A stretch of 64,000 nucleotides of DNA. Origin: Pseudohongiella acticola (GTDB lineage: Bacteria; Pseudomonadota; Gammaproteobacteria; Pseudomonadales; Pseudohongiellaceae). Every line of letters starts with the position of its first letter. Position 1 is the first letter of the stretch. Shown in pieces: positions 1,457-60,239 of the stretch. The stretch is taken from assembly GCF_001758195.1 (NCBI RefSeq), contig NZ_MASR01000001.1, positions 930,001 through 994,000 of the forward strand, in the 5' to 3' direction. The notes under the pieces were generated by a model. The model made no database searches and had not been told where the DNA came from. It saw nothing but the letters and a program-made list of their open reading frames with translations. The position numbers were made by a program, and so were the translations under genes.

Positions 1457-2368
1457 TTACAGTAGCGCGCGCTCAGCCGGCGCTTCTGCTAACGGAGTAA
1501 CGTCAACCGCCACGGTGAGTTTATGCTCTCCCCCACCGCTCATGACGCCTTTTAACGGCGTCACATCAGAAAAGTCACGCCCCCAGCCGAGGACAATGTA
1601 GCGTTCGTCGGGCACACAGCCATTGGTGGGATCAACTTCCTGCCACCCCCAGCCGGGAATAAAAACCGCAACCCAGGCATGCGTGGCATCAGCACCCAGC
1701 AGTTTCTCCTGCCCGGGTGGTGGCGATGTTTCCATGTAACCGCTGACGTAACGTGCAGCCAGCCCCATGGAGCGCAGACAGCCTATCAGCAGGTGTGCAA
1801 AATCCTGACAGACACCTCGCCTGCTCTCCAGCACTTCGGACAGCGGCGTTGCCAGTGTTGTCGAATCTTCATCGTAACTGAATTCGTCAAAAATGCGCCG
1901 GTTCAGCTCAAGCAGGGCATCAAGCAACAATCTGCCGCGCGCAAAACTAGGTCTGGCATAGTCCAGCAACGCCGGTTGCTGCGAGACAAAAGGCGAGTCC
2001 AGACCATATAACCTGGCTGCAATACTGTCCCTGTTGCCATACCCTGGCGCACAGCTCATTTCTGCCGCTGCGTCTTCCCACGAGGTACCGGAGAAAATAT
2101 CCTGGGCTGGCCTCGGCAGGGTTTCAACCTCGCTGGTAACGACAACCTCAAGGCTGTTGTGGACCACCTCAATAGCAAAATACGCTACCCGATTACCAAA
2201 AAAATCCTGACGTTCAGTCAATCCGACAGGATTCGGACTAATCGTCAGTTGTGTATTATTACAGGTCTGCCAGGGCAGTTGACGCGGCAGAATTCGCGCC
2301 TCATTGTGACTGAGAGTGGCCGGCCCACTGTACTCATAACGCGTCAGATGTCTTAACTTATATCTCAT
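1457..2368 (-). CDS. Transglutaminase-like family protein
   Basis: A 303-residue protein with an N-terminal bacterial transglutaminase N domain (starts MRYKLRHLTRYEYSGPA) and a C-terminal transglutaminase-like core. The catalytic triad is visible: Cys187 in RRGVCQDFAH, His230 in ADATHAWV and Asp246 in VDPTNG. Members act as papain-fold amidases, peptidases or amide-transferring enzymes; the substrate is unknown. It is the last gene of the left arm of the amidoligase cluster. Its ATG lies within the end of the upstream ATP-grasp/alpha-E gene with a 4-base ATGA overlap, so the two are probably translationally coupled. No signal peptide is seen, so it is predicted cytoplasmic. Confidence 0.92.
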   Translation of the reverse strand: MRYKLRHLTRYEYSGPATLSHNEARILPRQLPWQTCNNTQLTISPNPVGLTERQDFFGNRVAYFAIEVVHNSLEVVVTSEVETLPRPAQDIFSGTSWEDAAAEMSCAPGYGNRDSIAARLYGLDSPFVSQQPALLDYARPSFARGRLLLDALLELNRRIFDEFSYDEDSTTLATPLSEVLESRRGVCQDFAHLLIGCLRSMGLAARYVSGYMETSPPPGQEKLLGADATHAWVAVFIPGWGWQEVDPTNGCVPDERYIVLGWGRDFSDVTPLKGVMSGGGEHKLTVAVDVTPLAEAPAERALL

Positions 2369-4983
2369 TTGTTGGTCAGCTCCATGGTGACCAGTTGCCG
2401 GGACGCTTCGACATGGCTGAAATGACTGTGTGAAACCGCATTGGATAATTCGGCCATAGGCTCAATCAACTCATCCAGCAGAGCCATCAGAATGTCACGC
2501 GCTTCGGCCGAATGCTCAATATCAGCAAGGCTGTCAATATCGACCAGATGCAGAGTACTGGTCGCCTGAATGATCAGCCGGTTCTCCAGATTTCGATAGG
2601 AACTGCTCTCCGCCATTGCCGGTAAACGTGCCACCTGCCGTCCCAGTCGCTTGAGCATATACCCGACAGAACGTGGATTGGTCTCATCAAACAGCAACAA
2701 GTCCAGAATGGCTGAGGGGTGCAATTGTGAACGATAACGCCGACGGTAGACGGTGAAGTTGTCGGTAGTCGCCAGAACCACTTCCCACAATGGGATACCC
2801 GGCTGATTGGCGGTCAATAAAGCCAGTTTCAGTAGTTGCAATGTGCCCAGCACGCGCTCGATAAAACGACCAATATCCAGAAAACGCCATCCATAGTGAT
2901 GAGGCATGGTTTCGTTGCACAACCCGAAAAAGGCGGCCAAATCAACCACAACCGCTTCCAGCAGCCGCTGCCCCGTTACCACGCCCTTGGTGCGGGCGAT
3001 GGCGTTGCAACGCTGGCGAATACTGCTGACTGAACGCCAGGCGTCGTCGCCCAGATGATCGCGCACCGCACGGCTATTGCGCACAAATTGACTGAATGCC
3101 ATTGGTAATCCGTCGGGCGCCTGATCCGATAACAAAGTCAACAACCGGTCACGCGCCAGCAGGTACGCTGGTGAGAAACGTGGATGCTCCCCCATGGCGG
3201 CCAGCTCTTCCTCAAGCTCATCTTCGTCCGGCGCCACGCCCAGCGCTGTCAGCAGATCCGGCAGCAGCGTCACCACCGCTTCCTGGGGACTTTCCTGCAA
3301 CAGACGACCAAGCGCCTCACGCAGCAGGCGCGCCCTGATGTCCATACGCTCACCATAGCGCCCCATCCAGAACAGGCTCTCGGCGACCCGACAGGGCAGA
3401 TCCTTGCCATCCCGGGTGACCAGTATCGGTCCCTGCGCCTGCCGTAACATGCTGACATGTGGTTGCGGTGCCGACGCCAGTACCCAGATATCCTTGACCA
3501 CGCGACTTTTCATCATCGCAGTACCGGGTTCACCGACCCAGGCCAGGCCACCGGGCATGATCCGGAAGGCATGCTCTCTGACCGGTTTATGGATGTCTTC
3601 AGCTTCGATAGAGGAGAAGAAACGTAGGGTTGCTGTCTGTCGCTCAACTGTCTTGCTGGACGGATCGAAGCCCGGCGTGACAGCGGCCTGCAGAGGTTTC
3701 TGAGCAGTGAAAAGATGCGGTCGCAATTGCAGGTCGGAACGCAACGCCGCCACAGACTCCAGCCCCATCTGGTCAACATGAAAAACCTTGCCCGGCCGTG
3801 TGATATCGCGCAGCACCCATTCATCCATCGCGGCACGAACCAGATCAAGCGAAGACTGGTCGCCGCACCATAGTGCCTCACGCCCACGCAGCATCAGCGA
3901 TTCTCCCAGCAGCCGCTGACACAGCGCGGGCAGAAACGCCGCCAACGCCGGATGTTCCAGCACGCCCGCACCCAGAGCGTTTACAATATGTACTTGACCG
4001 CTGCGTGCAGCCTGCATCAAACCCGGTACACCCAGCAGTGAGTCGGGGCGCAGTTCCAGCGGGTCGCACCAGGGGTCATTGATCTGGCGCATGATCACAT
4101 CCACCTGATGCAGACCACCCAGCGTACGCACCGCAACCTGGCCGTCTCGCACAACCAGATCATCGCCTTCGACCAGCGGAAAATTCATGTAGTTGGCGAG
4201 CCAGGCGTGCTCAAAATAACCCGGGCTGCCCGGTCCCGGCGTCCACAACACTATGTTGGGCTCCTGACGTTGCGTGCTGGCAAGACTGGCCAGGCAGCGG
4301 TGCTGCGCCTGCAGAAAACCCGCCAATCGCTTGATCGGTGCATCGCGATAGAGACCCGGCAATGCTCTTGCCAGGGTGATCCGGTTTTCCAGTGCATATC
4401 CGACTCCGGCCGGCGACTGGGTCCAGTCCGCCAATACCTGCCATTGCCCGTCATTGTCGCGAATGACATCAGTTCCATGAAAAATCAGCAGCGGTCGACC
4501 GACCTGTGACGGCGAATCGACAGCGGAAAACAGAAATCCGGGATGGGTGTAGACCAGTTCGGGGGGCAACAGACCTTCATTGATAACTTTGCGCTCGCCA
4601 TAAAGATCATCAAGCAACATCGCCAATAACCGGCTGCGCTGACGCAGGCCACACTCCAGATAGGACCAGTCGTCGACACTGATAACATAGGGCAGGCAAT
4701 CCAGGCGCCAGGAGCGCAGCTGGCCAGGATCATCCTCATACGGGTTGAAGGTGACACCGTTTTCATGCAACAGGCTTTGCGCTTCTTCGCTGCGGGCGCT
4801 CAGGGTATCCGGCCCCATAGCCGAAAATTCCGCCAGCAAGGCCTGCCAGTGAGCCCGCGGCTGCTGGTTCGGGCTCAGCAGTTCGTCCTGACCATCGTGG
4901 CCGGGATAATCATTGAGCAGATCGTTCAAGGCAGGATCGTTAATGCCCGAAGGCTGCATATCGTGTACCGCATTCTGGTTCAA
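2365..4983 (-). CDS. Circularly permuted ATP-grasp / alpha-E fusion protein
   Basis: An 872-residue two-domain protein. Residues about 80-500 are a circularly permuted ATP-grasp domain (RDNDGQWQVLADWTQSPAG, YALENR, LRFFSSIEAED). Residues about 510-860 are an alpha-E helical domain beginning LPCRVAESLFWMGRYGERMD, with a second helical repeat at HYGWRFLDIGRFIERV. Stand-alone relatives of the ATP-grasp part are predicted peptide ligases. Compared with the ATP-grasp gene at 8567, the equivalents of the KPANESGGYG and GGGSKD loops are missing, so nucleotide binding may be lost. It lies 31 bases downstream of the large transglutaminase gene and overlaps the small transglutaminase gene by 4 bases. 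Confidence 0.92.
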   Translation of the reverse strand: MNQNAVHDMQPSGINDPALNDLLNDYPGHDGQDELLSPNQQPRAHWQALLAEFSAMGPDTLSARSEEAQSLLHENGVTFNPYEDDPGQLRSWRLDCLPYVISVDDWSYLECGLRQRSRLLAMLLDDLYGERKVINEGLLPPELVYTHPGFLFSAVDSPSQVGRPLLIFHGTDVIRDNDGQWQVLADWTQSPAGVGYALENRITLARALPGLYRDAPIKRLAGFLQAQHRCLASLASTQRQEPNIVLWTPGPGSPGYFEHAWLANYMNFPLVEGDDLVVRDGQVAVRTLGGLHQVDVIMRQINDPWCDPLELRPDSLLGVPGLMQAARSGQVHIVNALGAGVLEHPALAAFLPALCQRLLGESLMLRGREALWCGDQSSLDLVRAAMDEWVLRDITRPGKVFHVDQMGLESVAALRSDLQLRPHLFTAQKPLQAAVTPGFDPSSKTVERQTATLRFFSSIEAEDIHKPVREHAFRIMPGGLAWVGEPGTAMMKSRVVKDIWVLASAPQPHVSMLRQAQGPILVTRDGKDLPCRVAESLFWMGRYGERMDIRARLLREALGRLLQESPQEAVVTLLPDLLTALGVAPDEDELEEELAAMGEHPRFSPAYLLARDRLLTLLSDQAPDGLPMAFSQFVRNSRAVRDHLGDDAWRSVSSIRQRCNAIARTKGVVTGQRLLEAVVVDLAAFFGLCNETMPHHYGWRFLDIGRFIERVLGTLQLLKLALLTANQPGIPLWEVVLATTDNFTVYRRRYRSQLHPSAILDLLLFDETNPRSVGYMLKRLGRQVARLPAMAESSSYRNLENRLIIQATSTLHLVDIDSLADIEHSAEARDILMALLDELIEPMAELSNAVSHSHFSHVEASRQLVTMELTNK

Positions 4984-5014
4984 TTCTGGACTGGGCTAAT
5001 TCTGGACAGGCGAA

Positions 5015-8000
5015 TTATAAACCAGTCGCGGCGATGCCGGCACGTCTTAGATCCAGTGTATGCGGATAATCCTGCCCCGGTGCCTGCGCAATATGCTCTA
5101 CCCTGCCCTGGCTATGGCCGTGCTCCCAGAATCTCGCCATACGGCGTGCCTCAGCCTCATTGGCATTAACGGGAAAGGTTTCATAATTGCGCCCGGCCGG
5201 ATGCACAACATGGTATGTACATCCCCCCATTGAGCGTTGATGCCAGGTATCGATCAGATCGAAGGTCAGCGGCGCATGCACTTTAATGCGCGGATGCAGG
5301 GCCGACGGTGGCTGCCAGGCCCGATAACGCACGGCCGCGACGGCTTCGCCAGGCACACCCGTCGCCTGCAGCGGCACTCTGTAACCGTTGCAGGTCAGGA
5401 CATGGCGTGATGGATTAAAGTCACTCAATTTGACTTCCAGACGCTCAACTGAAGAATCCACGTAACGCGCAGTGCCGCCACCACTGGCCTCTTCCCCAAG
5501 CACATGCCACGGCTCAATGGCCTGACGCAACCGGAGCTGCGCACCCTCATAGCGCACCTCACCGATCATCGGAAAGCGGAATTCCAGGAAGGCAGCAAAC
5601 CAGGCCGGATCAAAATCGAAACCGTGCGCACGCAGGTCTGCCAGTACATCGGTCAGATCCTGCCAGATGAAATGCGGCATCATCCATTTGTCGTGCAGTG
5701 CGGTTCCCCAGCGTACCAATGGCTTGCGATAGGGTTCCTTGAAAAAACGTGCGACCAGAGCACGAATCAGCAGCTGTTGCATCAGGCTCATCTCGGGGTG
5801 CGGCGGCATTTCAAACCCGCGCAACTCAAGCAGACCCAGACGACCGGTGGCTGAATCTGGAGAATACATTTTGTCGACACAGAATTCGGCACGATGGGTA
5901 TTGCCGGTAATATCGGTTAGCAGGTTTCGTACCAGCCGATCAACCAGCCAGGGTTCATTGACCTCCCCCTCTGGCATCTGCGACAGGGCGATTTCCAGTT
6001 CGTACAGGGCTTCATGACGTGCTTCATCGACACGCGGCGCCTGACTGGTGGGGCCGATAAACATACCCGAGAACAGATACGACAGGCTGGGATGATGCTG
6101 CCAGAAAGTCAGCATGCTGGCTAACAGGTCCGGGCGGCGCAGGAAGGGTGATTCCTCGGGCGTGCGGCCGCCAAGCGTGACATGGTTGCCACCGCCGGTG
6201 CCGGTGTGACGACCATCCAGCATGAACTTTTCAGTGCCCAGGCGAGTCAGCCGGGCCTCTTCGTAAAGTATGCGGGTATTACTGACCAGATCCGGCCACG
6301 TTCCAGCGGGCATGACGTTCACTTCGATGACGCCCGGGTCCGGCGTGATCATGAATTTATCGAGGCGTGGGTCAGAGGGCGGCGGGTATCCCTCGATACA
6401 GACCGGCATTCGCAAAGCAGCAGCGGTATGTTCCACCACCGCCAGCAAGCTCAGGTAATCCTCCAGCAACGGCAATGGCGGCAGGAATATAAACAATTTA
6501 CCTTCCCGCGCCTCAATACACAGCGCAGTACCAATAACCCCTTCATCTGCGCTGTCGACCAGCTGTTCCTGCCAGTTCTGGCCAACACTGTGATGATGGT
6601 GCCCCGGCGTACCAGCTGCTTCTGTCGGCACATGATTATACATACGGGCCACTTCCCCGGCCTGGGCATGCAGATCCTCCAGGTCGGGCAACTCGGCAAA
6701 CGGGGAACGAGGCTGAATCTCTTCGCGTTTCCTGATTGGCAACGACGACAGTGGCAGCCGCAGCCCCATTGGCGAATCACCCGGAATAAGGAACAGGTGG
6801 TCACGTTTGACGGGCCAGTGCCCGGTCATCCAACGCTCTTTTTCTCGCGTCAACGGCAGGGTCAGACCCACCGGTTTGTCCAGGCCTCGTTCCAGTACTC
6901 GCGACAGACGTGCGCGGTTAAGATCATTACTCAGGTCTTCGGCATGCAGATCCAGGTCGGCAGGTTGCTGTTGTTCCAGCCACAGGTAGTAATACGCATC
7001 TTCATAACAGGGGATCAGAAAACGACTGGGAACTTTGAGTGAGGTAACCAGGGCGTTGGCAAAGCCCCTGGCCTCTTTTTCACCATAACCATAGTCTTTA
7101 TCGATGTCAGCCAGCCACTGATCATCGCGCCACATCGGTTTGCCATCACGGCGCCAGTAACAGGCGAGTGCCCAGCGTGGCAGTACCTCGCCCGGATACC
7201 ACTTGCCCTGCTGGTACTGCAGCAACGAGTTTGGTGCGTAGTGTGGTCGCAGGCGTCGCATCAACTGCTCAGACAGCTTGCGCTTGGTTGGCCCCTGCGC
7301 CGCGATGGTCCATTCTGGTGCGTCCATATCATCGATTGACACAAAGGTGGGCTCACCGCCCATGGTCAGCCGCACGTCCAGCGCTTTCAGTTGTGCATCG
7401 ACGTCCTGTCCCAGCGCATCAATGGCAGACCATTGTGCCTGCGTATAAGGCCTGGTGACACGCGGATCTTCATGCACTCGCGTCACACTCATCTCGAAAT
7501 CAAACTCGACCTCGGTCGGCTCGGTGGCGCCGGTAATGGGCGCAGCACCGGCAGGGTCAGGTGTCGCCGCCAGCGGCAAATGCCCTTCGCCCGCGAACAG
7601 CCCCGACGTCGGGTCCAGGCCGATCCAGCCGGCCCCGGGGATGAACACTTCGCACCAGGCATGAAGATCGGTAAAGTCCCTGTCGGTGCCTGACGGGCCG
7701 TCCAACGCTTTAACATCGGCTGTCAGCTGCACCAGATAGCCCGACACAAAACGTGACGCCAGGCCCAGGCGACGCAGGATGTGAACCAATAGCCAGGTAG
7801 AGTCGCGGCATGACCCGCGCGCCAGCGCCAGTGTTTCCTGAGGTGACTGCACCCCCGGCTCCATACGAATCAGGTATTCGATGTCCTGCGCCAGGCGCTG
7901 GTTCAGGCCCACCAAGAATCCCGTTATATCGGTTTTCTCGCGTTTTACGCTGCTTAGCCACTTGTCCAGCAGTGGCCACTTCTGGCTGCTTTCAAGATAG

Positions 8001-8347
8001 GGTGCCAGTTCCTTTTGCAGCACTGGCGTATAGTTAAACGGGAAGTGCTCTGCATACTCTTCAACAAAGAAATCAAACGGGTTGACGACGGTCATGGGAG
8101 CGACCAGTTCAACCTCAATGTGCAGACTTGACAGTTTCTCCGGGAACACCAGGCGCGCTATATGGTTGCCAAACGGGTCCTGCTGCCAGTTGAGAAAGTA
8201 CTCACCACCGGAGATCTTCAAACTGTAGGCATCTATCGGCGTGCGACAATGTGGCGCCGGTTTCAGGCGTATCTGGTGCGGCCCGACTTCAATGGGTCGG
8301 TCAAAGTCGTACCGGGTGGAATGTTTCAATGCTACACGGATGGTCAT
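5015..8347 (-). CDS. Large transglutaminase-DUF2126 protein
   Basis: A 1110-residue protein of the long transglutaminase family with a DUF2126 C-terminus. The N-terminal third contains a bacterial transglutaminase N domain and the catalytic core: Cys in ARGSCRDSTW, His in TDLHAWCEVF, Asp in LDPTSG. The remaining two thirds (from about residue 300: MGGEPTFVSIDDMDAPEW) is DUF2126, with the highly conserved DGRHTGTGGGNHVTLGG segment and a WGTALHDKWMMPHF segment. The family is regularly encoded beside circularly permuted ATP-grasp and alpha-E genes. It is the first gene of the minus-strand arm; 219 bases separate its start from the divergent plus-strand arm. Its reaction is unknown; amide cleavage or transfer is inferred from the triad. 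Confidence 0.93.
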   Translation of the reverse strand: MTIRVALKHSTRYDFDRPIEVGPHQIRLKPAPHCRTPIDAYSLKISGGEYFLNWQQDPFGNHIARLVFPEKLSSLHIEVELVAPMTVVNPFDFFVEEYAEHFPFNYTPVLQKELAPYLESSQKWPLLDKWLSSVKREKTDITGFLVGLNQRLAQDIEYLIRMEPGVQSPQETLALARGSCRDSTWLLVHILRRLGLASRFVSGYLVQLTADVKALDGPSGTDRDFTDLHAWCEVFIPGAGWIGLDPTSGLFAGEGHLPLAATPDPAGAAPITGATEPTEVEFDFEMSVTRVHEDPRVTRPYTQAQWSAIDALGQDVDAQLKALDVRLTMGGEPTFVSIDDMDAPEWTIAAQGPTKRKLSEQLMRRLRPHYAPNSLLQYQQGKWYPGEVLPRWALACYWRRDGKPMWRDDQWLADIDKDYGYGEKEARGFANALVTSLKVPSRFLIPCYEDAYYYLWLEQQQPADLDLHAEDLSNDLNRARLSRVLERGLDKPVGLTLPLTREKERWMTGHWPVKRDHLFLIPGDSPMGLRLPLSSLPIRKREEIQPRSPFAELPDLEDLHAQAGEVARMYNHVPTEAAGTPGHHHHSVGQNWQEQLVDSADEGVIGTALCIEAREGKLFIFLPPLPLLEDYLSLLAVVEHTAAALRMPVCIEGYPPPSDPRLDKFMITPDPGVIEVNVMPAGTWPDLVSNTRILYEEARLTRLGTEKFMLDGRHTGTGGGNHVTLGGRTPEESPFLRRPDLLASMLTFWQHHPSLSYLFSGMFIGPTSQAPRVDEARHEALYELEIALSQMPEGEVNEPWLVDRLVRNLLTDITGNTHRAEFCVDKMYSPDSATGRLGLLELRGFEMPPHPEMSLMQQLLIRALVARFFKEPYRKPLVRWGTALHDKWMMPHFIWQDLTDVLADLRAHGFDFDPAWFAAFLEFRFPMIGEVRYEGAQLRLRQAIEPWHVLGEEASGGGTARYVDSSVERLEVKLSDFNPSRHVLTCNGYRVPLQATGVPGEAVAAVRYRAWQPPSALHPRIKVHAPLTFDLIDTWHQRSMGGCTYHVVHPAGRNYETFPVNANEAEARRMARFWEHGHSQGRVEHIAQAPGQDYPHTLDLRRAGIAATGL

Positions 8348-8566
8348 GAGAGGCTCATCTTCGAATGAAGTATACCCAAGAGAATAGCAACGCCTGTGCC
8401 AAAAGCAAGGTATGATAATTTTATGACCAAACTGTTGTCAGCCTGCGCAAGCCGTGAAAAGATAGAACTCATGGCCGACTCTCCACCGCAGTTGCGGTTA
8501 AACCTGGTATACAGATTGCTTCAACGGGTTCACACTGATCAAGACACTGAGCAACAATGAGGGTGA
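8348..8566. promoter_or_regulatory. Divergent intergenic region of the amidoligase cluster
   Basis: 219 non-coding bases between the two arms. A TATACT hexamer on the minus strand (8374-8369) lies 22 bases from the transglutaminase-DUF2126 start, and a TGGTATACA extended -10-like element on the plus strand (8505-8513) precedes the ATP-grasp start. Neither has a good -35 partner, so the promoters are only suggested. A GAGGG Shine-Dalgarno at 8559-8563 serves the gene at 8567. The two arms are probably transcribed from here. Confidence 0.35.
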
Positions 8567-10021
8567 ATGAGCAACATCAATTGGGAAGAATATAAAGCTA
8601 CCGGCTTCTACGATGAACTGATTGCGGCCGACGGCAAACCCCGCCCTGAAGCCGAGCTCTTGTGCCAGTATCTGGCAAACCTCGATTCCCGTGAGTTGCA
8701 GGAACACAAAACTGCCGCCGAAGTCGCCATCCAGCTAATGGGCATTACCTTTACCGTTTACACCGAAGGCACAATGATTGACCGCGCCTGGCCGTTTGAT
8801 ATTGTGCCCCGTATCATTCCTCTTAAAGAGTGGCAGAAAACCGAGGCCGGCCTGAAGCAACGGGTGCAGGCGCTTAACATGTTCATTGATGATCTTTATC
8901 ACGATCAGAAAATCATCAAGGACGGCATTTTCCCCAAAGAGCTACTGCAACACTCGGTAAACTTCCGGCCTCAGTGTGTCGGCATCAAAACCCCGCATAA
9001 TATCTGGGCGCATATTTGTGGCTCTGACCTGGTCCGCGACAACGATGGCACGCTCTACGTGCTGGAAGACAATTTACGGGTACCGTCCGGCGTGTCGTAC
9101 ATGCTGGAAAATCGCAACGTCACCAAACGGGTATTGCCCGAGCTGTTTGCTTCCGGCCAGATTCAGCCGGTAGACGACTACACTTCCCAACTCTACGAGA
9201 TGCTCGCATCGATGTCGCCACGACCCGGCGATGACCCGTCCATCGTGATTCTGACACCCGGCATCTACAATTCCGCCTATTACGAACACGCCTATCTCGC
9301 CCAACAGATGGGCGTGCAACTGGTCGAAGGCTCGGACCTGGTGGTGGGCGACGATGACTGCGTGTACATGCGCATGGTGGACGGTCTGGCCCGGGTGGAT
9401 GTCATTTACCGCCGCGTTGACGACATGTTTCTGGACCCGGAGGTGTTTAATCCGGAATCGACTCTGGGTTGCCGCGGCCTGATGCGCGCATGGCGCAAGG
9501 GCAACGTGGCACTGGCCAATGCACCGGGTGCTGGTGTAGCCGACGACAAAGTGGTGTACGCGTTCGTCCCCAAGATCATCAAATACTATCTGGACCAGGA
9601 GGCGCTGCTGCCCAATGTTCCCAGCTATCTTTGCATGTTTGAGGACGATCGCAACTATGTGCTCGATAACCTTGATAAACTGGTAGTAAAACCGGCCAAT
9701 GAGTCGGGTGGCTACGGCATGATGATCGGCCCACATGTCAGCAAAAAAGAACGTAAAAAATTCGCTGAACTGATCAAGGCTGACCCGCGAAACTACATGG
9801 CGCAACCAACACTGGCGTTGTCCACTTCGCCGACATTGATAGACCATGGCATGGAGTCTCGCCACGTCGATCTTCGACCCTTTATTCTTTCAGGGGAGTC
9901 AACTTTCGTCACCACCGGCGGCCTGACCCGCGTGGCACTGACGAAAGGCTCACTGGTAGTGAATTCGTCCCAGGGCGGTGGCAGCAAAGACACCTGGATT
10001 GTCGACGTGGCGGGAAACTGA
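8567..10021 (+). CDS. Circularly permuted type-2 ATP-grasp protein
   Basis: A 484-residue stand-alone ATP-grasp protein that keeps the family's motifs: RDNDGTLYVLEDNLRVPSG with the Mg-binding E-D-N, SYMLENRNV, LVVKPANESGGYG (lysine plus glycine loop), MAQPTLALSTSP, VDLRPFILSG and the terminal GGGSKDTWIV. ATP-grasp ligases activate a carboxylate as an acyl phosphate and join it to an amine; relatives are predicted amino-acid or peptide ligases. A GAGGG ribosome site lies 4 bases before the ATG. It is the first gene of the plus-strand arm and is followed one base later by the alpha-E gene, so the pair is equivalent to the fusion at 2365-4983. It looks like the catalytically intact ligase of the cluster. 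Confidence 0.94.
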   Translation: MSNINWEEYKATGFYDELIAADGKPRPEAELLCQYLANLDSRELQEHKTAAEVAIQLMGITFTVYTEGTMIDRAWPFDIVPRIIPLKEWQKTEAGLKQRVQALNMFIDDLYHDQKIIKDGIFPKELLQHSVNFRPQCVGIKTPHNIWAHICGSDLVRDNDGTLYVLEDNLRVPSGVSYMLENRNVTKRVLPELFASGQIQPVDDYTSQLYEMLASMSPRPGDDPSIVILTPGIYNSAYYEHAYLAQQMGVQLVEGSDLVVGDDDCVYMRMVDGLARVDVIYRRVDDMFLDPEVFNPESTLGCRGLMRAWRKGNVALANAPGAGVADDKVVYAFVPKIIKYYLDQEALLPNVPSYLCMFEDDRNYVLDNLDKLVVKPANESGGYGMMIGPHVSKKERKKFAELIKADPRNYMAQPTLALSTSPTLIDHGMESRHVDLRPFILSGESTFVTTGGLTRVALTKGSLVVNSSQGGGSKDTWIVDVAGN

Positions 10022-10022
10022 G

Positions 10023-10985
10023 ATGCTTTCACGAGTTGCAGAAAACATATACTGGCTGGCCCGCTATATCGAGCGTGCTGAAGATACCGCACGACTGCTG
10101 AGCGTAAACAGCAACCTGATGCTCGACCTGCCCCGCGCTACACAGCTCGGCTGGGCAGAGATCATCGCCATTACCGGTCACGGTGAACTGTTTGACGAAC
10201 TCTACCCACATCGCGACGAAGCCAGCGTGCTGTCTTTCATCTGCAGTGACCGGCGTTATTCCGGCTCCATTATCAGCTCCCTGTCCGCTGCCCGGGAAAA
10301 CCTGCGCACAACACGCGACGTCATTCCACGCGAAATCTGGGAAGAGATCAATCAGCTTTATCTGGGCGTTCGTGAAATGGTCGACTCCGGCGTCACGCCG
10401 CGCAAGCGCGATGCATTTCTGCGCCGTGTCATTCGTAGCTGCCAAACTGTCAACGGCCTGATCGAAGGCTCCTTGAGTTATACCCAGGTGCGCACGTTTC
10501 TTATGCTCGGACGCCAGCTTGAGCGCGCCGATATGACGACCCGTATTATCGACGTGCGTTCCGCCAACCTGCTACCACGTAGTCCGGGTGAATTGACCCC
10601 TTTTGAAAACCTGCAGTGGATGAGTGTGCTTAAATCGCTCACCGGGTATCAAATGTACCGCCAGCATGTACGCTTACGAATTCGCGGCCCTGATGTACTC
10701 AGTTTTTTGCTGCAGAACCGCAATTTTCCCCGTGCCGTTGCCTGCAGTCTAGAACGACTGGCCAATGCCCTGTCGACTTTGCCGCGCAATGAAACCGCAC
10801 TCAATGAAGTGGAAACCTGCCGCACACACCTGGCCGAAGCTGCTATCTCGGTGCTTGCTGCCGAGCCTGATCGCCTTCATGCATTCGTCGATGAAATTCA
10901 GATCGACTTCACTGATTTGCACGAAGCCATACGAAAAACCTATTTTGATGGTCCGGCGGAGCTCACTCAGGAGCAAAAGCAGTAG
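10023..10985 (+). CDS. Alpha-E domain protein
   Basis: A 320-residue all-helical protein beginning MLSRVAENIYWLARYIERAED, the diagnostic start of the alpha-E family; a second copy of the pattern appears later (FLMLGRQLERADMTTRII). Alpha-E proteins have no known catalytic activity of their own and always accompany circularly permuted ATP-grasp proteins, often fused as at 2365-4983. The ATG at 10023 was chosen because it lies one base after the stop of the ATP-grasp gene and starts exactly at the conserved motif; the frame is open 15 codons further upstream but that part overlaps the ATP-grasp gene and shows no family similarity. Confidence 0.93.
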   Translation: MLSRVAENIYWLARYIERAEDTARLLSVNSNLMLDLPRATQLGWAEIIAITGHGELFDELYPHRDEASVLSFICSDRRYSGSIISSLSAARENLRTTRDVIPREIWEEINQLYLGVREMVDSGVTPRKRDAFLRRVIRSCQTVNGLIEGSLSYTQVRTFLMLGRQLERADMTTRIIDVRSANLLPRSPGELTPFENLQWMSVLKSLTGYQMYRQHVRLRIRGPDVLSFLLQNRNFPRAVACSLERLANALSTLPRNETALNEVETCRTHLAEAAISVLAAEPDRLHAFVDEIQIDFTDLHEAIRKTYFDGPAELTQEQKQ

Positions 10986-10988
10986 TCG

Positions 10989-12125
10989 ATGAAAGTCCTC
11001 GGCAAATCATACAGCCATGTACACCATTGTCAGTGTGGACAGTTATTGTTTTTCGACAATTCTGTCTGCCTGGTCTGTGGTGCCGCTGTTGCCTACCATC
11101 CTGAACTGGGGCAGGTAACAAGCCTGGAACCGGCCAAGCACTCGGATGCAGATTCAGAGCTGTGGCATATTCATGGTGAACCCGCCAGTATCCGACGCCG
11201 CTACAGTCGTTGTGCCAATCTTAACTCACCGGCATTGTGCAACTGGCTGATCACCGATGTGCGCACGGGCAATCTTTGTACCGCCTGCGCACTCAATATT
11301 ACCATCCCGGACCTGAGCCATTCCGATAACGCCGACTACTGGCAAGCCTGCGAAGGTGCCAAACGCCAGCTGGTCGCGCAACTCATCATGCTCGGCCTGT
11401 CAGTGCATAACCGAACAATCGACCCCTATCGCGGCCTGGGCTTTGAGCTGTTGCGCTGGCAGCAGGGAGAACCCCCGGTGATGACCGGGCATAAAGACGG
11501 TATTATCACCCTCGACATTATGGAAGCCGACCCTGCACATCGGGAGCAATTGCGACAGCAGATGCACGAGCCCTACCGTACCCTGCTTGGCCATTTCCGA
11601 CACGAATCAGGTCACTATTACTGGGATTTACTGGTACGCGACACGGCCTGGCTGAAACCCTGTCGCGAGTTCTTTGGCGACGAGCGGCTGAATTACAGTG
11701 TAGCACTGCAACAACACTACCAGAGCGGCCCGTCTCCGGATTGGCAGTCAACTTATATCAGCAGTTACGCCGCCTCTCACCCCTGGGAAGACTGGGCTGA
11801 AACCTGGGCGCACTACCTGCACATGACCGATACGCTGAGCGCGGCTGAGCAGTTCGGGATTGCCGTTGATACGCTGAGTTTCCGTACCGATCCATTTACC
11901 GAAACCGACCTCGAAGATTGCCCGTTTCAATGCCGTGACAAACAGTCAACCTCGCGCTTTCTGGACAACGTCAATCAGTGGGTAAGACTGAGCAGTGTGC
12001 TCAACGTGCTGTCGCGCAGCATGGGCCAGCCTGACAGCTACCCCTTTGTATTGACACTGGCAAGCCTGCGCAAGATGTATATGGTGCATACTGTCATTGC
12101 GCAGACCAGCCCAAACGGCAGATAA
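10989..12125 (+). CDS. Zinc-ribbon putative zinc-binding metallopeptidase
   Basis: A 378-residue protein of the putative zinc-binding peptidase family. The N-terminus carries a zinc ribbon (HHCQCGQLLFF ... SVCLVCG), followed by a second cysteine group (RCANLN, ALCNW, LCTACALN). The peptidase centre is visible as HFRHESGHYYWD (an HExxH-type HESGH) with FFGDERLNY and ASHPWEDWAETWAHYLHM downstream as probable further ligand or active-site segments. It begins 3 bases after the alpha-E stop, so it is very likely co-transcribed with the ATP-grasp and alpha-E genes and may cleave or process the product of the ligases. In related loci of other bacteria this place can be taken by a proteasome-like (Anbu) peptidase. 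Confidence 0.9.
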   Translation: MKVLGKSYSHVHHCQCGQLLFFDNSVCLVCGAAVAYHPELGQVTSLEPAKHSDADSELWHIHGEPASIRRRYSRCANLNSPALCNWLITDVRTGNLCTACALNITIPDLSHSDNADYWQACEGAKRQLVAQLIMLGLSVHNRTIDPYRGLGFELLRWQQGEPPVMTGHKDGIITLDIMEADPAHREQLRQQMHEPYRTLLGHFRHESGHYYWDLLVRDTAWLKPCREFFGDERLNYSVALQQHYQSGPSPDWQSTYISSYAASHPWEDWAETWAHYLHMTDTLSAAEQFGIAVDTLSFRTDPFTETDLEDCPFQCRDKQSTSRFLDNVNQWVRLSSVLNVLSRSMGQPDSYPFVLTLASLRKMYMVHTVIAQTSPNGR

Positions 12126-12222: not shown

Positions 12223-13383
12223 ATGACTCCCTGTCGTTCCCTGGTCTCTTTATTAACCACGGTCACGATTATCGCGATGCTGAATTCGAGCGTGGCCCAG
12301 GCACAGAGGCCTGATGCGCCGCCCTCAGACAACGCAAGACCCATCGATCTGGCTATTGTCGGCCCGATGGTGGGAACCAGTTTCTATGTCGGCATGCAGT
12401 TTATCGCTGGCGTCAATGCAGCCATCAGCACATTGACCGATGGCACGCTACTGGGACGGCCGGTTCGTATTAAAGAATACGATGACCGCTGCCGGCAGGC
12501 GATCGCTGAGAAGCTGTCTCTTGAGATAGTACAACAGCCACCTCACGTAATAATCGGTCACTCCTGCTCAGCCACGACCATTGCCGCTGCGCCGGTTTAT
12601 GCCGCCCATGACATTCTACAAATCACACCATCCTCTACCGCGCCGGCGGTCACTGAAATGGGGATTTCCAGCATTTTCCGCATGATAGGACGCGATGACG
12701 CTCAGGGTCAGATGGCCGCTGACTGGCTTGCGACCCATCATTCTGGCGAAAAACTGGGTTTCTTTCGCTCATTTAATGATTACTCAATGGGCCTGACCAA
12801 CTCCGCCATCGCAGAATTGAGCAACCATGGTATTGAACCCACTCTTGTTGTGCAAAGCGCCGCTTCTGCAACATCCTATCTTAACGAAATCATGCAATTC
12901 ATGGCAGCAGACATTGATGTTGTGTACCTGGTTGGCGGTGCGCTGGACAGCGGCGTTTTTGTCCGCCAGGCCCGGCAGGTGGCCGCGCCGTTTAACATTA
13001 TCAGCAGCGATACGCTGGTGTCGTCAATATTCATGGAAACGGCAGGCGCGGCGGCTGACGGCATCCCGTTCACCTCCCCCGCTGACGTCACACGACTGGC
13101 TGATGAAGATCTGAACGGAAGCGCAGTCGCAGCCATCAAGTCACTGGGATTTGATGCCGAGGGGTACACCTTATTGGCCTATGCTGCCACTGAGGTCTGG
13201 CTAGAAGGCGTTCGCCGGGCACAAAGCCTGCAGGCCGAAGCGGTCGCCAACGCCATTCGTGCAGAACCTCTGAACACCGTTCTGGGCACCATTAGCTTTG
13301 AAGCCAATGGCGACATCAGCACGCCCTACCCGGCGTTTTCCTGGTTCAACTGGCAGGCGGGGCAACGTGTTCCTCTCGACTGA
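12223..13383 (+). CDS. Periplasmic ligand-binding protein (Peripla_BP_6, branched-chain-amino-acid-like)
   Basis: A 386-residue secreted type-I periplasmic binding protein. A signal peptide is clear (MTPCRSLVSLLTTVTIIAM, ending AQA). The mature part has the usual fold signatures: LAIVGPMVGTSFYVGMQFIAGVNAA, VIIGHSCSATTIAAAPVYAAHDI and ISSIFRMIGRDDAQGQ. The ATG at 12223 is preferred because GGAGG (12208-12212) lies 10 bases before it; a TTG seven codons upstream is the alternative. No ABC permease or ATPase follows. Instead the next gene is a membrane diguanylate cyclase that overlaps its end by 17 bases, suggesting the protein presents a ligand to that sensor, in the manner of TorT for TorS. 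Confidence 0.9.
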   Translation: MTPCRSLVSLLTTVTIIAMLNSSVAQAQRPDAPPSDNARPIDLAIVGPMVGTSFYVGMQFIAGVNAAISTLTDGTLLGRPVRIKEYDDRCRQAIAEKLSLEIVQQPPHVIIGHSCSATTIAAAPVYAAHDILQITPSSTAPAVTEMGISSIFRMIGRDDAQGQMAADWLATHHSGEKLGFFRSFNDYSMGLTNSAIAELSNHGIEPTLVVQSAASATSYLNEIMQFMAADIDVVYLVGGALDSGVFVRQARQVAAPFNIISSDTLVSSIFMETAGAAADGIPFTSPADVTRLADEDLNGSAVAAIKSLGFDAEGYTLLAYAATEVWLEGVRRAQSLQAEAVANAIRAEPLNTVLGTISFEANGDISTPYPAFSWFNWQAGQRVPLD

Positions 13384-15181
13384 TTCGCCGCTGCGCAAGC
13401 GGGTGGCTGCGCTGGGCATACGCGCCAGCTTTTTGCTGGGCATCACCGCGATGGCCGTCTTCATGATTCTGGTCACGGCCATTGCATTATTGACGTCGAC
13501 CCTGATGACGCGCGGCGTTGGCGACATTCTGGATAACCGACTGCCGTCAACACTGGCTAGCGTCAATGCCGAAAAGGCCGTTGACACACTGGCCGCAGCC
13601 GGCTCCCTACTCGTTTCCGTTCGCAGCAGCCAGGCACGAGAAACAGCATTTGCGCGAGTTGCGCGGGCACAGTCAGACCTGCAATTGGCCCTGGATGACC
13701 TGGTCGTCACACAGGGAGCCGATTCCGCGGCGGAAGTCATTCGGCTGAGTCACGCCCTTAACCTGAATCTGGAGAACTTGCGTGCACTGGCGGACCAGAG
13801 GCTGAGCCTGATCGACGAGCAGATTGCTGCACGAGGGAGGTTGTTGAGCATTCTGCAGGCATTCCAGCAGAACCTGACCCATCGCATCAGAATACTGGAA
13901 GGAGACAGTGACGTCATTCGTCTGCTCGGTAGCCGATCAGAACCTCCTACGCAACAGATTGCTGCACTGGCCACCGACACGGCTCCTCTCATACCACTCG
14001 CCAGCTTCTACGCCGATATCGAGTCGGTCGGCGGCCGGTTGCTGGCAGCCGGACAAGATCCCAGTGCAACAACCTTGGCATTGTCGGAGCAGGTGGTCGA
14101 AGCCACCCTGAGCAACGCGCGGGAAACACTGCAAAAGTTGTCGTCGGACCTTGCATCGGCCCTGCAGTCGCGATTTCTGGAAATGCAGGAACTGAGTACT
14201 GGCTCCGAAGGTATTATAGAGCTCAGGCGCAGCGAGCTGACGCTTCTGGAAACAGGGGAAAATTGGAACCAGGATAACCAGCGTATCATCAATCAGGTCA
14301 ACGCCGAGGTAGACAGCCTGGTCAACCAGGAACTGGCTGAAATAGACAATGCTGGAGAGGCTGTGGCCTGGACCGGCCAGGTTTTTCTGATACTGCTATT
14401 AGGCATCACGATCACCGGACTATTGGGCCTTGCCGCTTTTTTCTATTTTCATGTGATTCGCCATCTTATCGACCGGATAAGCACGCTAAGCAATGCCATG
14501 CAAATGATTGCAGCCGGACACTACGATGTTGCGCTGCCGCCTGAGGGCAACGACGAACTGGGCAGACTGGGCCGCGCCGTGCACACATTCCGCGATGTCG
14601 GCCAGAGCACTGCAATACGGGAACAACAGTTACAGATACTGAATGCCGAACTGGAAAAACTGTCCATCTCCGACGCGCTGACTGGCCTGGCCAACAGACG
14701 TTGCTTTGATGATGTCCTGAATGACGAATGGGAACGTGCGATGCGTTCACAACAACCTTTGGCAGTATTGATGCTTGATGTTGACAATTTCAAGCGCTAC
14801 AACGATCGTTATGGTCATCTCGCCGGCGATCAGTGCCTGAAACATATAGCAACTGTACTGAAAGATCGCGTCTATCGAAGCACTGATCTGGCAGCGCGTT
14901 ATGGTGGCGAAGAGTTTGTAGTCATACTGGAAAACTGTGTAGCCGATGACGCTGTCAATATCGCGCAGCAGATTCGCATCGCCGTTGCCAACCTGAAGAT
15001 TACTCACGACGCAGCCATAGAACAGGTGGTGACTGTCAGTATCGGTGCGGCAGCCATGGTGCCGTCATATACCGAAGATATGACTCAGGAAAAACCCAGC
15101 GACACATTGTTGCGGATGGCAGACAATGCTCTCTATCGGGCCAAGGTAGCAGGACGAAACCGGGTAGAACTCGGCACCTGA
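13367..15181 (+). CDS. Membrane diguanylate cyclase with long periplasmic helical sensor, HAMP and GGDEF
   Basis: A predicted c-di-GMP synthase. The first membrane segment is about residues 17-45 (SFLLGITAMAVFMILVTAIA). A periplasmic, helix-rich region of about 290 residues follows, then a second membrane segment (VFLILLLGITITGLLGLAAF), a HAMP region (IDRISTLSNAMQMIAAGHYD) and GGDEF. The active site is GGEEF at about residue 513, with an RSTD inhibitory site five residues before it, so product feedback is expected. The GTG at 13367 (GGCGGGG just upstream) is the likely start; an in-frame ATG at 13298 lies inside the binding-protein gene. The bundle-type sensor following a binding-protein gene resembles TorS-type sensors, which read a periplasmic binding protein. 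Confidence 0.88.
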   Translation: MFLSTDSPLRKRVAALGIRASFLLGITAMAVFMILVTAIALLTSTLMTRGVGDILDNRLPSTLASVNAEKAVDTLAAAGSLLVSVRSSQARETAFARVARAQSDLQLALDDLVVTQGADSAAEVIRLSHALNLNLENLRALADQRLSLIDEQIAARGRLLSILQAFQQNLTHRIRILEGDSDVIRLLGSRSEPPTQQIAALATDTAPLIPLASFYADIESVGGRLLAAGQDPSATTLALSEQVVEATLSNARETLQKLSSDLASALQSRFLEMQELSTGSEGIIELRRSELTLLETGENWNQDNQRIINQVNAEVDSLVNQELAEIDNAGEAVAWTGQVFLILLLGITITGLLGLAAFFYFHVIRHLIDRISTLSNAMQMIAAGHYDVALPPEGNDELGRLGRAVHTFRDVGQSTAIREQQLQILNAELEKLSISDALTGLANRRCFDDVLNDEWERAMRSQQPLAVLMLDVDNFKRYNDRYGHLAGDQCLKHIATVLKDRVYRSTDLAARYGGEEFVVILENCVADDAVNIAQQIRIAVANLKITHDAAIEQVVTVSIGAAAMVPSYTEDMTQEKPSDTLLRMADNALYRAKVAGRNRVELGT

Positions 15182-18143: not shown

Positions 18144-21100
18144 TCACCCGGGCAGGGTAGCATTATCGGAATGGAAACAGAAAAAGGTCTGCCTATCCTT
18201 TTTTGCCTTGTACATCGCCTGGTCTGCGAGAATAAGCAGCTTTTCAAGATCATCTTCATTTTCCGGGTAAAGACTGATACCAATACTGACACCCACGCTG
18301 ACCTGATGCGACTGACCTGAGACCAGCGTGCTGATATCAATAGGGGCGGTAATGACCTCTTTGAGTTTCTCCGCCACTTTGACGGCGAACTGAGCATCCT
18401 TGATATCGGTGAGTAACAGCACGAACTCGTCGCCACCCAGGCGGCAGACAAGATCACTGGCGCGCAGAACCGATCGAATGCGCTCTGCCAGCGTCACCAA
18501 CACGCTGTCACCAGCATCGTGTCCCCAACTATCATTTATTTCCTTGAACAGATCAATGTCAACGAACATGATCGCGGCATTGGTTTGCTCACGCGCAGCG
18601 CTGTGCAAAGCCTGCTCACCCAGCGACATAAAAAGGCGCCGGTTCGGCAGTCCGGTCAGATAATCATTGTAGGCAATCTGTCGAATTTCTTCTTCTGCCT
18701 GTTGCCGCCGTATTACTTCTTCCTGCAGATTGGTATTGGCGCGCGTCAACTCCAGTGTGCGATCACTGACCATCGTCTCCAGCACCTGATTACGACGACT
18801 GACAGTAATGGTCTTATAGCGGTAAAGCATTAGCAACACCGCAATCAGCGCTATTGTCAGCGCCACCTGAAAAGCGGCCGTCTGCCAAAATGCCGGAGCG
18901 ATATAGATTGCCAGCGATGCTCGCTGCGTGCTCCAGTTGCCATCGCTGTTGCTGCCTCTGACTTCAAACTCGTAGCGACCAGGCTGCAGATTTGTATAAC
19001 TGGCATAACGACGGCCCTCCGATGGAATCCAGTCACTGTCAACACCAGACAAACGGTATTCATACTGATTGCGTTCTGGCGCAGAAAAATCAAGCGCAGC
19101 AAATTCGAATGACAGGTAATTTTCAAAATGGCTCAGTTCAACCAGATCACTGTCGCTGCTTATTGCACGATCCTGATTTAGCACGCTGAACTGGGTCACA
19201 ACCACGGGTGGGTTATAGGCACTCTCTTCAATCGCGCCCGGCTCAAACACGTTGAAACCATTGACCCCACCAAAGTACATTTCTCCGGAATCCGCGCGGT
19301 AATATGCACCATTGTTAAATTCCTCACCCTGCAGACCATCATTAATGCCAAAATTGGCAAAGGTGCCGGTTTCAGGGTCGAACCGAGAGATACCCTTGTT
19401 TGTGCTCATCCACAGCCGATCATTGTTATCTGACAGAATGCCGTAAATAACATCATTGGGTAGACCGTCAGCGACAGAGTAGCGATGAAACGTACCGGTC
19501 TCAAAGTCAAGCCGGCTGAGGCCACTGCGTGACCCAAACCAGACGGCGCCCTGCCTGTCTTCAAATATGGAAAAAACCGAATCGTTGCTGAGTGAATTTT
19601 CGTTTGCTGTGTCGTGCCTGAAATGAATGAACTCCCCGGTCTCGACATCCAGCCGACTGACGCCGGTTGTCATGGTACTGAACCAGATTCTGCCAGCACG
19701 ATCCTCATAAAGCGCCGTTATTCGGTCGCCGGGTATGGAGCCGGAATCATCCGGGTCATGACGATAGCGGGTAAAGCGCCCCGTTTCCGGGTCAAGCCTG
19801 TTGAGTGCATCGCGTGCGCCAACCCAGACACTGCCTCGCCGGTCGATCATTACCCGCCAGACCACATCATTGCTTAGACTCGACGGATTACCGGGCTGGT
19901 GATGATAGTTGGTAAAGGTCTTAGTCACCGGGTCGAAACGTGACAAACCACCGTGCGTCGCCAGCCATAGGTGCCCCTGCGCATCCATATCCAGCGCACG
20001 CACAATATTGTGCGGAATTCCCTGCTCATCATCAGGGTCATAAGCGTAATGGACAAAATTTCTTGTATCCAGATCCAGTACATTGAGGCCACCCTGAGTG
20101 CCAATATAAAGGGTACGACCTGCTTTCAAGAATGCACGTACTGTGTCTTCACTGAGGCTGTTATCACTCCACCACTCATGATGGTAATGACGAAAGCGGG
20201 CCTGCTTGGCATCATACTTGTTCACGCCGCCGACATGCGTGCCGAACCACATGATGCCGCTGCTATCTTCCAGCGCTGTTAACATGTGATCATCATTGAG
20301 TGTGTTATCAACGCCCGGCTGGTACGGCAAGGGACTGAAAACTCCGGTTTCACGATCAAAGAGGTCCAGCCCGCCGCCCAGATAGTGCCCAACCCACAAT
20401 CGTCCCTGACTGTCTTCATACACCGAGCGTAGCGAATTGGAGCTGATACTGCCGGCGACATCGGGGTGGTGCATGTAACGCGTGAATGTTCCGGTTTGTG
20501 GATCCAGCGAATTCAATCCGCCTGAATTTGTGCCTATCCAGACGGTACCCCCGGCGTCCACCAGCAACGAGGTCAGATCGTCGCTCGACAGGCTGTTGGC
20601 ATTATCCGGCTCATGGGAATACCGACGCACGTTGCCGGTACTGACATCAAGCCGGTTCAGCCCTGCATCCTCGGTCGCCACCCATAAATAACCGTTGTTA
20701 TCTCCGACCAACGCGTTCACACGATCACTGCTCAGCGTGTCGGGATTGTCAGGATCATGGTGGAAATGTGTAAAGCGACCTGTCTCACGGTCCAGTTGAT
20801 TAAGACCGCCGCGAGACGTACCAACCCAGAAATTGCCGGCATCGTCTTCAAACAGTGCTGTCACAGTGGGATGGCTGAGGCTGTCAGGGTCATCGGCATC
20901 ATGGTTGTATTGCACAAAACGACCACTTGCTCGCTGTAGACGATTGAGCCCGTTGTCTGTGCCCGCCCACAAAGTGCCTGCACGGTCTTCATATAAAGAC
21001 CACACAGTGCTGCTGGACAGTGACGCTTGCGCAGTGGGGATGCCGGTGTCGTCAGTCTGATGGCGATACACCAGAAAATTGTAGCCATCGTAACGGTTCA

Positions 21101-21299
21101 GGCCATCCTGCGTCGCGAACCACAGGTAACCCTCTGTATCCTGAACAATGGCATGCACCGAGTTCTGAGACAGACCATCGGCAACCGTCAGGTGCTCAAA
21201 ATAAATATCATCCGTCTGCGCTCGCGCCAATAACGCAAAACCCAGGAATAAACACAGGATAAAAAGCCTGACTGATTGAATGGCAGTATGGCCCTTCAT
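18144..21299 (-). CDS. Two-propeller (Reg_prop) Y_Y_Y sensor diguanylate cyclase
   Basis: A large membrane sensor of about 1051 residues. After a signal peptide (SVRLFILCLFLGFALLARAQ) come 14 repeats of the Reg_prop type (variations on LSNDVVWRV...DRRGSVWVG...LNRLDPETGRF), enough for two seven-bladed periplasmic propellers. A Y_Y_Y domain follows (YEYRLSGVDSDWIP ... GRYEFEVRGSNSDG), then one membrane segment (VALTIALIAVLLMLYRY), a short coiled coil and a C-terminal GGDEF. The active site is GGDEF in CRLGGDEFVLLL, and RASD five residues upstream is an inhibitory site. The likely start is the ATG at 21299, just before the signal peptide; the frame is open 16 codons further. The propeller architecture is best known in carbohydrate-responsive hybrid sensors; here the output is c-di-GMP. 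Confidence 0.92.
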   Translation of the reverse strand: MKGHTAIQSVRLFILCLFLGFALLARAQTDDIYFEHLTVADGLSQNSVHAIVQDTEGYLWFATQDGLNRYDGYNFLVYRHQTDDTGIPTAQASLSSSTVWSLYEDRAGTLWAGTDNGLNRLQRASGRFVQYNHDADDPDSLSHPTVTALFEDDAGNFWVGTSRGGLNQLDRETGRFTHFHHDPDNPDTLSSDRVNALVGDNNGYLWVATEDAGLNRLDVSTGNVRRYSHEPDNANSLSSDDLTSLLVDAGGTVWIGTNSGGLNSLDPQTGTFTRYMHHPDVAGSISSNSLRSVYEDSQGRLWVGHYLGGGLDLFDRETGVFSPLPYQPGVDNTLNDDHMLTALEDSSGIMWFGTHVGGVNKYDAKQARFRHYHHEWWSDNSLSEDTVRAFLKAGRTLYIGTQGGLNVLDLDTRNFVHYAYDPDDEQGIPHNIVRALDMDAQGHLWLATHGGLSRFDPVTKTFTNYHHQPGNPSSLSNDVVWRVMIDRRGSVWVGARDALNRLDPETGRFTRYRHDPDDSGSIPGDRITALYEDRAGRIWFSTMTTGVSRLDVETGEFIHFRHDTANENSLSNDSVFSIFEDRQGAVWFGSRSGLSRLDFETGTFHRYSVADGLPNDVIYGILSDNNDRLWMSTNKGISRFDPETGTFANFGINDGLQGEEFNNGAYYRADSGEMYFGGVNGFNVFEPGAIEESAYNPPVVVTQFSVLNQDRAISSDSDLVELSHFENYLSFEFAALDFSAPERNQYEYRLSGVDSDWIPSEGRRYASYTNLQPGRYEFEVRGSNSDGNWSTQRASLAIYIAPAFWQTAAFQVALTIALIAVLLMLYRYKTITVSRRNQVLETMVSDRTLELTRANTNLQEEVIRRQQAEEEIRQIAYNDYLTGLPNRRLFMSLGEQALHSAAREQTNAAIMFVDIDLFKEINDSWGHDAGDSVLVTLAERIRSVLRASDLVCRLGGDEFVLLLTDIKDAQFAVKVAEKLKEVITAPIDISTLVSGQSHQVSVGVSIGISLYPENEDDLEKLLILADQAMYKAKKDRQTFFCFHSDNATLPG

Positions 21300-21359
21300 G
21301 AAATACTTGCTCTCATTAAACCTTATTGTTACGTTGCAGACAGTCACAGGGTTTCTATT

Positions 21360-29959: not shown

Positions 29960-29963
29960 TCTC

Positions 29964-32087: not shown

Positions 32088-32124
32088 CAGCAATTCAACA
32101 CATCCTTTTTCTGAGGTTGCAGTC

Positions 32125-51539: not shown

Positions 51540-51540
51540 C

Positions 51541-60084: not shown

Positions 60085-60239
60085 TGTATCCTGTCCCTGA
60101 TCATTGATACGGCACATCTTTGTCGTTGTGATTTTGCGGGTGCCATATCTAACCGGTTTGAACCGGCGGTTTCAGACTACACTTTTCGCTAAAAAGGTCA
60201 ATTGCCAGCCTCATCAGTGCACCGAAAATGTGTGCAGCG

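Follow-up and report, generated by a model that had tools for sequence, protein, structure and literature searches.

Among the closest described relatives of the gene cluster considered here are the Anbu operons of Pseudomonas putida (PP_2685-2688) and Yersinia bercovieri, which, in the available parts of their descriptions, hold ATP-grasp, alpha-E and transglutaminase families that are also found in our cluster, the P. putida operon being nitrogen-responsive. According to the available portion of one study, a related ATP-grasp protein releases phosphate from ATP, and Anbu shows neither peptidase activity nor complex formation with its operon partners (PMC6376114). Another relative is the I35_5080-5083 cluster of Burkholderia cenocepacia, which likewise encodes an ATP-grasp (DUF404/407), an alpha-E (DUF403), a transglutaminase and a large transglutaminase-domain protein, but comprises four genes, and the accessible text of that report mentions neither a fusion nor a zinc peptidase (PMC5491218). 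We infer that its large transglutaminase-domain protein carries DUF2126. A further likeness is offered by the Rlo and RimK/RimB proteins of Pseudomonas, where, as the available part of the report describes, a peptidase opposes an ATP-grasp protein; there, however, the peptidase is aspartic, the transglutaminase is inactive and membrane-bound, and alpha-E goes unmentioned in that part of the text (PMC12239564). The inactive transglutaminase, RloB, is presented in the same excerpt as a genetic partner in the Rlo system and serves us as an analogy only (PMC12239564).

The present cluster is a variant of these alpha-E/circularly permuted ATP-grasp/transglutaminase loci (the "Anbu operon" family). 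Compared with the Anbu operon, it adds a fusion of ATP-grasp and alpha-E, DUF2126, a Peptidase_Mx metallopeptidase and a division into two divergent arms, and the genome's Anbu-like gene is found some 14 kb from it.

Gene content of the cluster

The first-pass annotation of the window (the whole 64-kb stretch of DNA that was analysed) had placed six open reading frames in two divergent arms, and both their places and their families are borne out by the list of open reading frames and by family profile matches (Table 1). It had also assigned the locus to the amidoligase type described by comparative genomics, and adjacent circularly permuted ATP-grasp, alpha-E and transglutaminase genes are present as this assignment implies. 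The spacing of genes within the arms stands apart from small corrections to the starts. The in-frame ATG at 10023, one base past the ATP-grasp stop, is the more likely start of the alpha-E gene. The fusion was called from a TTG at 4983, but its match to several relatives begins near an in-frame ATG at 4959, which is at least as likely a start and would place the fusion 55 bases from the DUF2126 gene instead of 31. The fusion and the last transglutaminase gene overlap by 4 bases, the alpha-E and peptidase genes are 3 bases apart, and the divergent gap between the two arms measures 219 bases. The genome encodes two alpha-E domains, both within this cluster.

Table 1. Genes of the divergent cluster and candidate sigma-54 promoter sites in its central gap (window coordinates)
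Feature	Position	Strand	Remarks
Transglutaminase (Bact_transglu_N + Transglut_core)	1457-2368	-	Last minus-arm gene; family match
ATP-grasp/alpha-E fusion (CP_ATPgrasp_2 + Alpha-E)	2365-4983	-	Family match; ATP-grasp domain without catalytic motifs
Transglutaminase-DUF2126 (Bact_transglu_N + Transglut_core + DUF2126; putative amidoligase)	5015-8347	-	First minus-arm gene; family match
Sigma-54 -24/-12 match, TGGCACAGGCGTTGCT	8386-8401	-	Reads into minus arm; sole perfect match in the 64-kb window
Sigma-54 match, TGGTATACAGATTGCT	8505-8520	+	9/11 positions; reads into plus arm
Standalone ATP-grasp (CP_ATPgrasp_2), circularly permuted	8567-10021	+	Motifs intact; family match
Standalone alpha-E (Alpha-E)	ORF 9978-10985; from ATG 10023-10985	+	Family match
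Zinc ribbon + Peptidase_Mx metallopeptidase	10989-12125	+	HESGH at residues 205-209; family match

The Cys-His-Asp triad is complete in both transglutaminase domains of the cluster: Cys187, His230 and Asp246 of the last transglutaminase are conserved in 29/29 aligned copies, and Cys180, His229 and Asp245 of the transglutaminase-DUF2126 protein are invariant in 29/29 rows. The HExxH residues of Peptidase_Mx (H205, E206 and H209) are likewise conserved in all 24 aligned copies; the family, under the name DUF2248, is listed as zincin-like in the available part of an earlier survey (PMC3650047). As to a possible kinship of DUF2126 with glutamine synthetase, the predicted model reached 9qur at Foldseek rank 39 with an E-value of 0.053, and hhalign against glutamine synthetase gave a probability of 4.5% with an E-value of 0.009, against 0.33 and 0.47 for controls; searching PDB sequences with the DUF2126 profile gave no match to glutamine synthetase.

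None of the six genes encodes Anbu, so that a strict definition of the Anbu operon, with Anbu in the same operon, leaves the cluster out. An Anbu-like gene is found outside the window, on the left side of the cluster at a distance of about 14 kb (L112:5841-6611; G000:C1:916841-917611), near htpX (L112:6842-7723) and a MATCAP/QEGLA-family gene (L112:7734-9071). We use the name Anbu for this gene because its product is 34-44% identical to proteins in alpha-E loci and has Thr, Asp and Lys at the catalytic places given for Anbu in the available part of PMC6376114. The protein matches the Pfam Proteasome family weakly (E = 1.4e-5) and has no NCBIfam match; our own Anbu profile (A3) includes it, and its match to that profile is thus by construction.

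A seemingly dead ligase twin

Relatives were gathered as 52 loci with the DUF2126 protein as query, and as a class sample of 184 genomes from 165 genera. The comparison covered 30 fusions from the DUF2126 loci and another 14 from sampled genomes, which share no more than 50% identity with the locus set; the standalone ATP-grasps comprise 32 from the loci and 3 that lie beside sampled-genome fusions. The first-pass annotation had seen in the cluster a duplicated ATP-grasp/alpha-E/transglutaminase set. The standalone ATP-grasp of the window has all the ATP-grasp motifs (LEDN, the GGYG loop and NSSQGGG), but the fused copy does not look like a working duplicate: the E and N of LEDN and the GGY loop are retained in 35/35 standalone proteins and missing in 44/44 fusions.

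Residue by residue, the standalone copies in the loci have E167, N169, K328, the GGY loop and N466 in 32/32 and K375 and D435 in 31/32, with one unknown letter each (L037 holds a few unknown letters), and the copies beside sampled-genome fusions are intact in 3/3. We take the residues lost from the fusions to be metal- and nucleotide-binding ones. Of the 126 alignment columns that are near-invariant in standalone copies, 34 persist in the fusions and 33 are lost. The standalone ATP-grasp is of the same family as 3n6x, the solved structure of a putative glutathionylspermidine synthase from Methylobacillus flagellatus (E = 1.9e-156), and the predicted structure of the fusion (mean pLDDT 81.1) folds like 3n6x (E = 7.5e-28) and like glutathione synthetases, though it lacks the motifs. 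No solved structure other than ATP-grasp enzymes matched the fusion model at E ≤ 0.001, and alpha-E has thus no confident solved relative in that comparison.

It could be argued that both ATP-grasps are active on different substrates, the active site of the fusion having diverged, and that two linkages are made. Such a reading would sit well with the constraint on the fusion protein, whose dN is 0.062-0.064 at a pS of 0.60-0.66 to L003, L004 and L016 (a rough guide to dN/dS, because synonymous sites are near saturation), with the ATP-grasp fold kept in its model, and with the presence of D475 in 30/30 and K375 in 5/30 locus fusions. Yet E167, N169, K328, D435, N466 and GGY occur in 0/30 of these fusions, and the 14 further fusions agree in lacking E167, N169, D435 and GGY, though several retain part of the last motif; we therefore consider two active ATP-grasps very unlikely. 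If two linkages were nonetheless real, DUF2126, as a putative amidoligase, would have to be the second ligase. The first-pass annotation had left a choice between two linkages and a catalytic plus a regulatory unit, and the second option fits a fused ATP-grasp without motifs, whereas two working ATP-grasps find no support.

The fusion thus seems, from its sequence, to be a conserved ligase twin that is catalytically dead, and it keeps company with intact relatives. A fusion-sized second ATP-grasp frame was found in 11/16 locus-derived genomes, and in each of these 11 a standalone ATP-grasp scores 536.9 bits or more; all 15 genomes of the class sample with a fusion-sized alpha-E frame carry a further alpha-E. 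The tree does not establish a single origin of the fusions, separating the 32 standalone copies from the 30 fusions at a support of just 0.22. No pseudo-ATP-grasp fusion is described in the literature searched, the founding comparative-genomics study being outside its scope.

Co-occurrence of alpha-E, DUF2126, Peptidase_Mx and Anbu

Alpha-E is present in 53/184 genomes of the class sample, and three of the associated families are restricted to these genomes: DUF2126 (32/32), full-length Peptidase_Mx (25/25; excluding seven genomes with weak partial matches of at most 38 bits, one of which has alpha-E) and Anbu (42/42; excluding weak profile matches in G020, 125 bits, and G152, 120 bits, neither with alpha-E). 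Synechococcus elongatus, taken as a control, has both DUF2126 and alpha-E. No more than 4 kb separates Peptidase_Mx from alpha-E in 15/25 genomes; the two are on different contigs in nine and 37 kb apart in one.

The first-pass annotation had suggested testing whether the zinc peptidase goes with the two-armed layout. We find the opposite tendency among alpha-E genomes, where DUF2126 occurs in 10/25 with Peptidase_Mx and in 22/28 without it (p = 0.0055, Fisher's test, which ignores shared ancestry), and the peptidase was accordingly rejected as a marker of that layout. Since it runs against DUF2126 among alpha-E genomes, Peptidase_Mx belongs to the wider alpha-E system. It is not a stand-in for Anbu either, as Anbu is found in 19/25 peptidase genomes (p = 0.74 within alpha-E genomes by the same test, which again ignores shared ancestry); where the two occur together, Anbu lies within 330 bases of Peptidase_Mx in convergent orientation in 11/19 genomes. 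A link between Peptidase_Mx and alpha-E is not described in the literature searched, which did not extend to the founding comparative-genomics study.

Candidate sigma-54 promoters and nitrogen control

Bacteria often use sigma-54 promoters under nitrogen shortage; the divergent gap holds a candidate site of this type for each arm (Table 1). Perfect matches to the pattern number 15 genome-wide, against one for the reversed pattern. Among 300 shuffles of the window's gap, none had both sites at their observed match, and eight had the plus-arm site alone; random 400-base stretches of the loci held a site of at least nine positions in 567/9800 cases and of at least ten in 81/9800. Conservation was followed in 16 gaps, namely that of the window and those of 15 gammaproteobacterial-type loci in which the ATP-grasp and DUF2126 genes face apart. 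A plus-arm site of at least 9/11 is present in 16/16 (window included) and the minus-arm site, hence both sites, in 13/16 (window included), the minus-arm site being lost in L009, L012 and L013, which have no -12 GC. TGGCAT-N5-TTGCT is found near the first-gene start in 3/3 Bordetella loci. In a separate scan of nine alphaproteobacterial divergent gaps outside this set (L031-L039), none had a site of at least nine positions on the DUF2126 side and one had such a site on the other side.

Nitrogen control of related clusters has been reported repeatedly. In the available parts of three P. putida transcriptome studies, nitrogen/NtrC control is given for PP_2685 and PP_2688 (PMC8050072), PP_2686-2688 (PMC7801951) and PP2685-2687 (PMC3325844), and in B. 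cenocepacia the I35_5080-5083 cluster depends on NtrC and sigma-54, as far as the accessible text goes (PMC5491218). Induction of PP_2686-2688 persists in a P. putida rpoN mutant according to an excerpt of PMC7801951, which therefore disfavours a strict sigma-54 dependence in that species. In its available portion, a marine metagenome survey places these domains together with urea metabolism (PMC3597751).

We rejected the idea that the window's gap holds an NtrC box, as the best match (8/14 positions) is at chance level and was equalled in 200/200 shuffles. No NtrC box above chance was found in 13 other gaps of the 16, and the whole window has 17 matches at up to three mismatches, where 16 are expected. 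Another enhancer-binding protein and another signal, in place of NtrC and nitrogen limitation, may thus switch the cluster on; the genome has seven strong enhancer-binding-protein matches, and several of its remaining perfect sigma-54 sites stand before frames that, judged by eye, seem to be flagellar. Against this alternative, which we regard as somewhat unlikely, stand the published control of the relatives and the same gap in Nitrincola, where NtrC-like boxes matching 13/14 positions in L014 (0/200 shuffles) and 12/14 in L015 (1/200) sit between the two sigma-54 matches. One P-II gene of the window's genome (L072) has an NtrC box together with a sigma-54 match.

Two near-identical 11-base repeats (ACACTGATCAA and ACACTGAGCAA), 12 bases apart, occupy 8532-8554, just before the start of the plus arm. 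Elsewhere in the genome, a perfect sigma-54 match (G000:C1:1028798-1028813; L061) precedes a frame that resembles, by eye, a TonB-dependent receptor.

Arrangement of the arms in relatives

The complete six-gene divergent layout is present in 10/52 DUF2126 loci (L003-L007, L010-L012, L016 and L017), and four further loci (L008, L009, L013 and L044) are cut by contig ends. Because the full layout recurs to this extent, the arrangement is not due to chance; the locus scan favours close relatives, being based on exact peptide words. The closest loci are those of Pseudohongiella and other gammaproteobacteria, the DUF2126 protein being 92% identical in L003, L004 and L016, and the layout extends to Halopseudomonas laoshanensis (L005) and H. 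pelagia (L007). Nitrincola (L014, L015) has five of the six genes, with no peptidase match within the stretch examined.

Besides the six-gene layout, the genes occur in several other arrangements. The minus-arm set (transglutaminase-DUF2126, fusion and transglutaminase) occurs without a standalone ATP-grasp in the stretch in ten loci (L021, L024, L025, L027-L030, L041, L045 and L050), and in the nine alphaproteobacterial loci, ATP-grasp and alpha-E diverge from transglutaminase-DUF2126 without a fusion, with Anbu following alpha-E in eight and the ninth (L036) cut by a contig end. The Bordetella loci (L049, L051 and L054) are co-directional gene runs. Since other lineages rearrange the parts in the stretches examined, the arms are separable modules. 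In L008, L012 and L044, about 630 bases separate the DUF2126 gene from the fusion, compared with 31-55 in the window, and three consecutive DUF2126-bearing open reading frames lie on one contig at G146:C104:396-9566.

Independent occurrence of the arms, without phylogenetic correlation, had been named by the first-pass annotation as a finding that would count against it. This is partly the case: the arms are apart in other lineages, whereas the genome-level tie to alpha-E is without exception in our sample. That the two arms are independent modules, brought back to back by chance in this lineage and sharing no joint product, is in our view improbable: each arm is found without the other in the stretches examined and no tie binds the peptidase to DUF2126, but the common gap keeps both sigma-54 sites in most of the loci scanned, the fusion was not found without a standalone ATP-grasp (11/11 genomes) or a further alpha-E (15/15), and every DUF2126 genome of the sample has alpha-E.

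A proposed mechanism

We tentatively propose, as a reading that is quite possibly correct, that the cluster is a sigma-54-promoter-controlled alpha-E/ATP-grasp/transglutaminase peptide-ligase system, with the fusion serving as a partner that does not itself catalyse. An enhancer-binding protein, perhaps NtrC under nitrogen limitation by analogy with the relatives, would switch on both arms together, and the intact ATP-grasp with alpha-E would, at the expense of ATP, form an amide bond on a peptide or protein. Performing no catalysis, the fusion might act as a scaffold or as a substrate-binding or regulatory partner that brings together the intact ligase and the transglutaminase-DUF2126 protein of the fusion's own operon. 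Peptidase_Mx and Anbu could then remove or recycle the linkage, and the product may be a protein tag or else a peptide for storage or scavenging. The system is best read as inducible, cytoplasmic, and both amide-ligating and amide-hydrolysing, and the cluster probably makes and trims a peptide-like bond. A more specific version, which we think unlikely, makes the fusion a dedicated pseudo-ligase subunit derived from an old catalytic loss, a conserved regulator or substrate carrier that couples the ATP-grasp/alpha-E and DUF2126 ligases and that forms, with Anbu and Peptidase_Mx, a starvation-induced amide-conjugation and -deconjugation machine.

Alpha-E systems are common in the sampled genomes, yet the literature searched, as far as its sources were available, names no product for them. 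This old question becomes testable with a conserved, seemingly dead twin, a metallopeptidase that the sample shows only in alpha-E genomes, and a promoter class that probably mediates induction.

Elsewhere in the window, six genes encode GGDEF and/or EAL domains (13298-15181, 18144-21347, 35396-36958, 49338-51581, 56256-57467 and 58528-60117), and a glycosyltransferase gene lies between two MdoG-family genes at 28427-33648, where the called open reading frames overlap.
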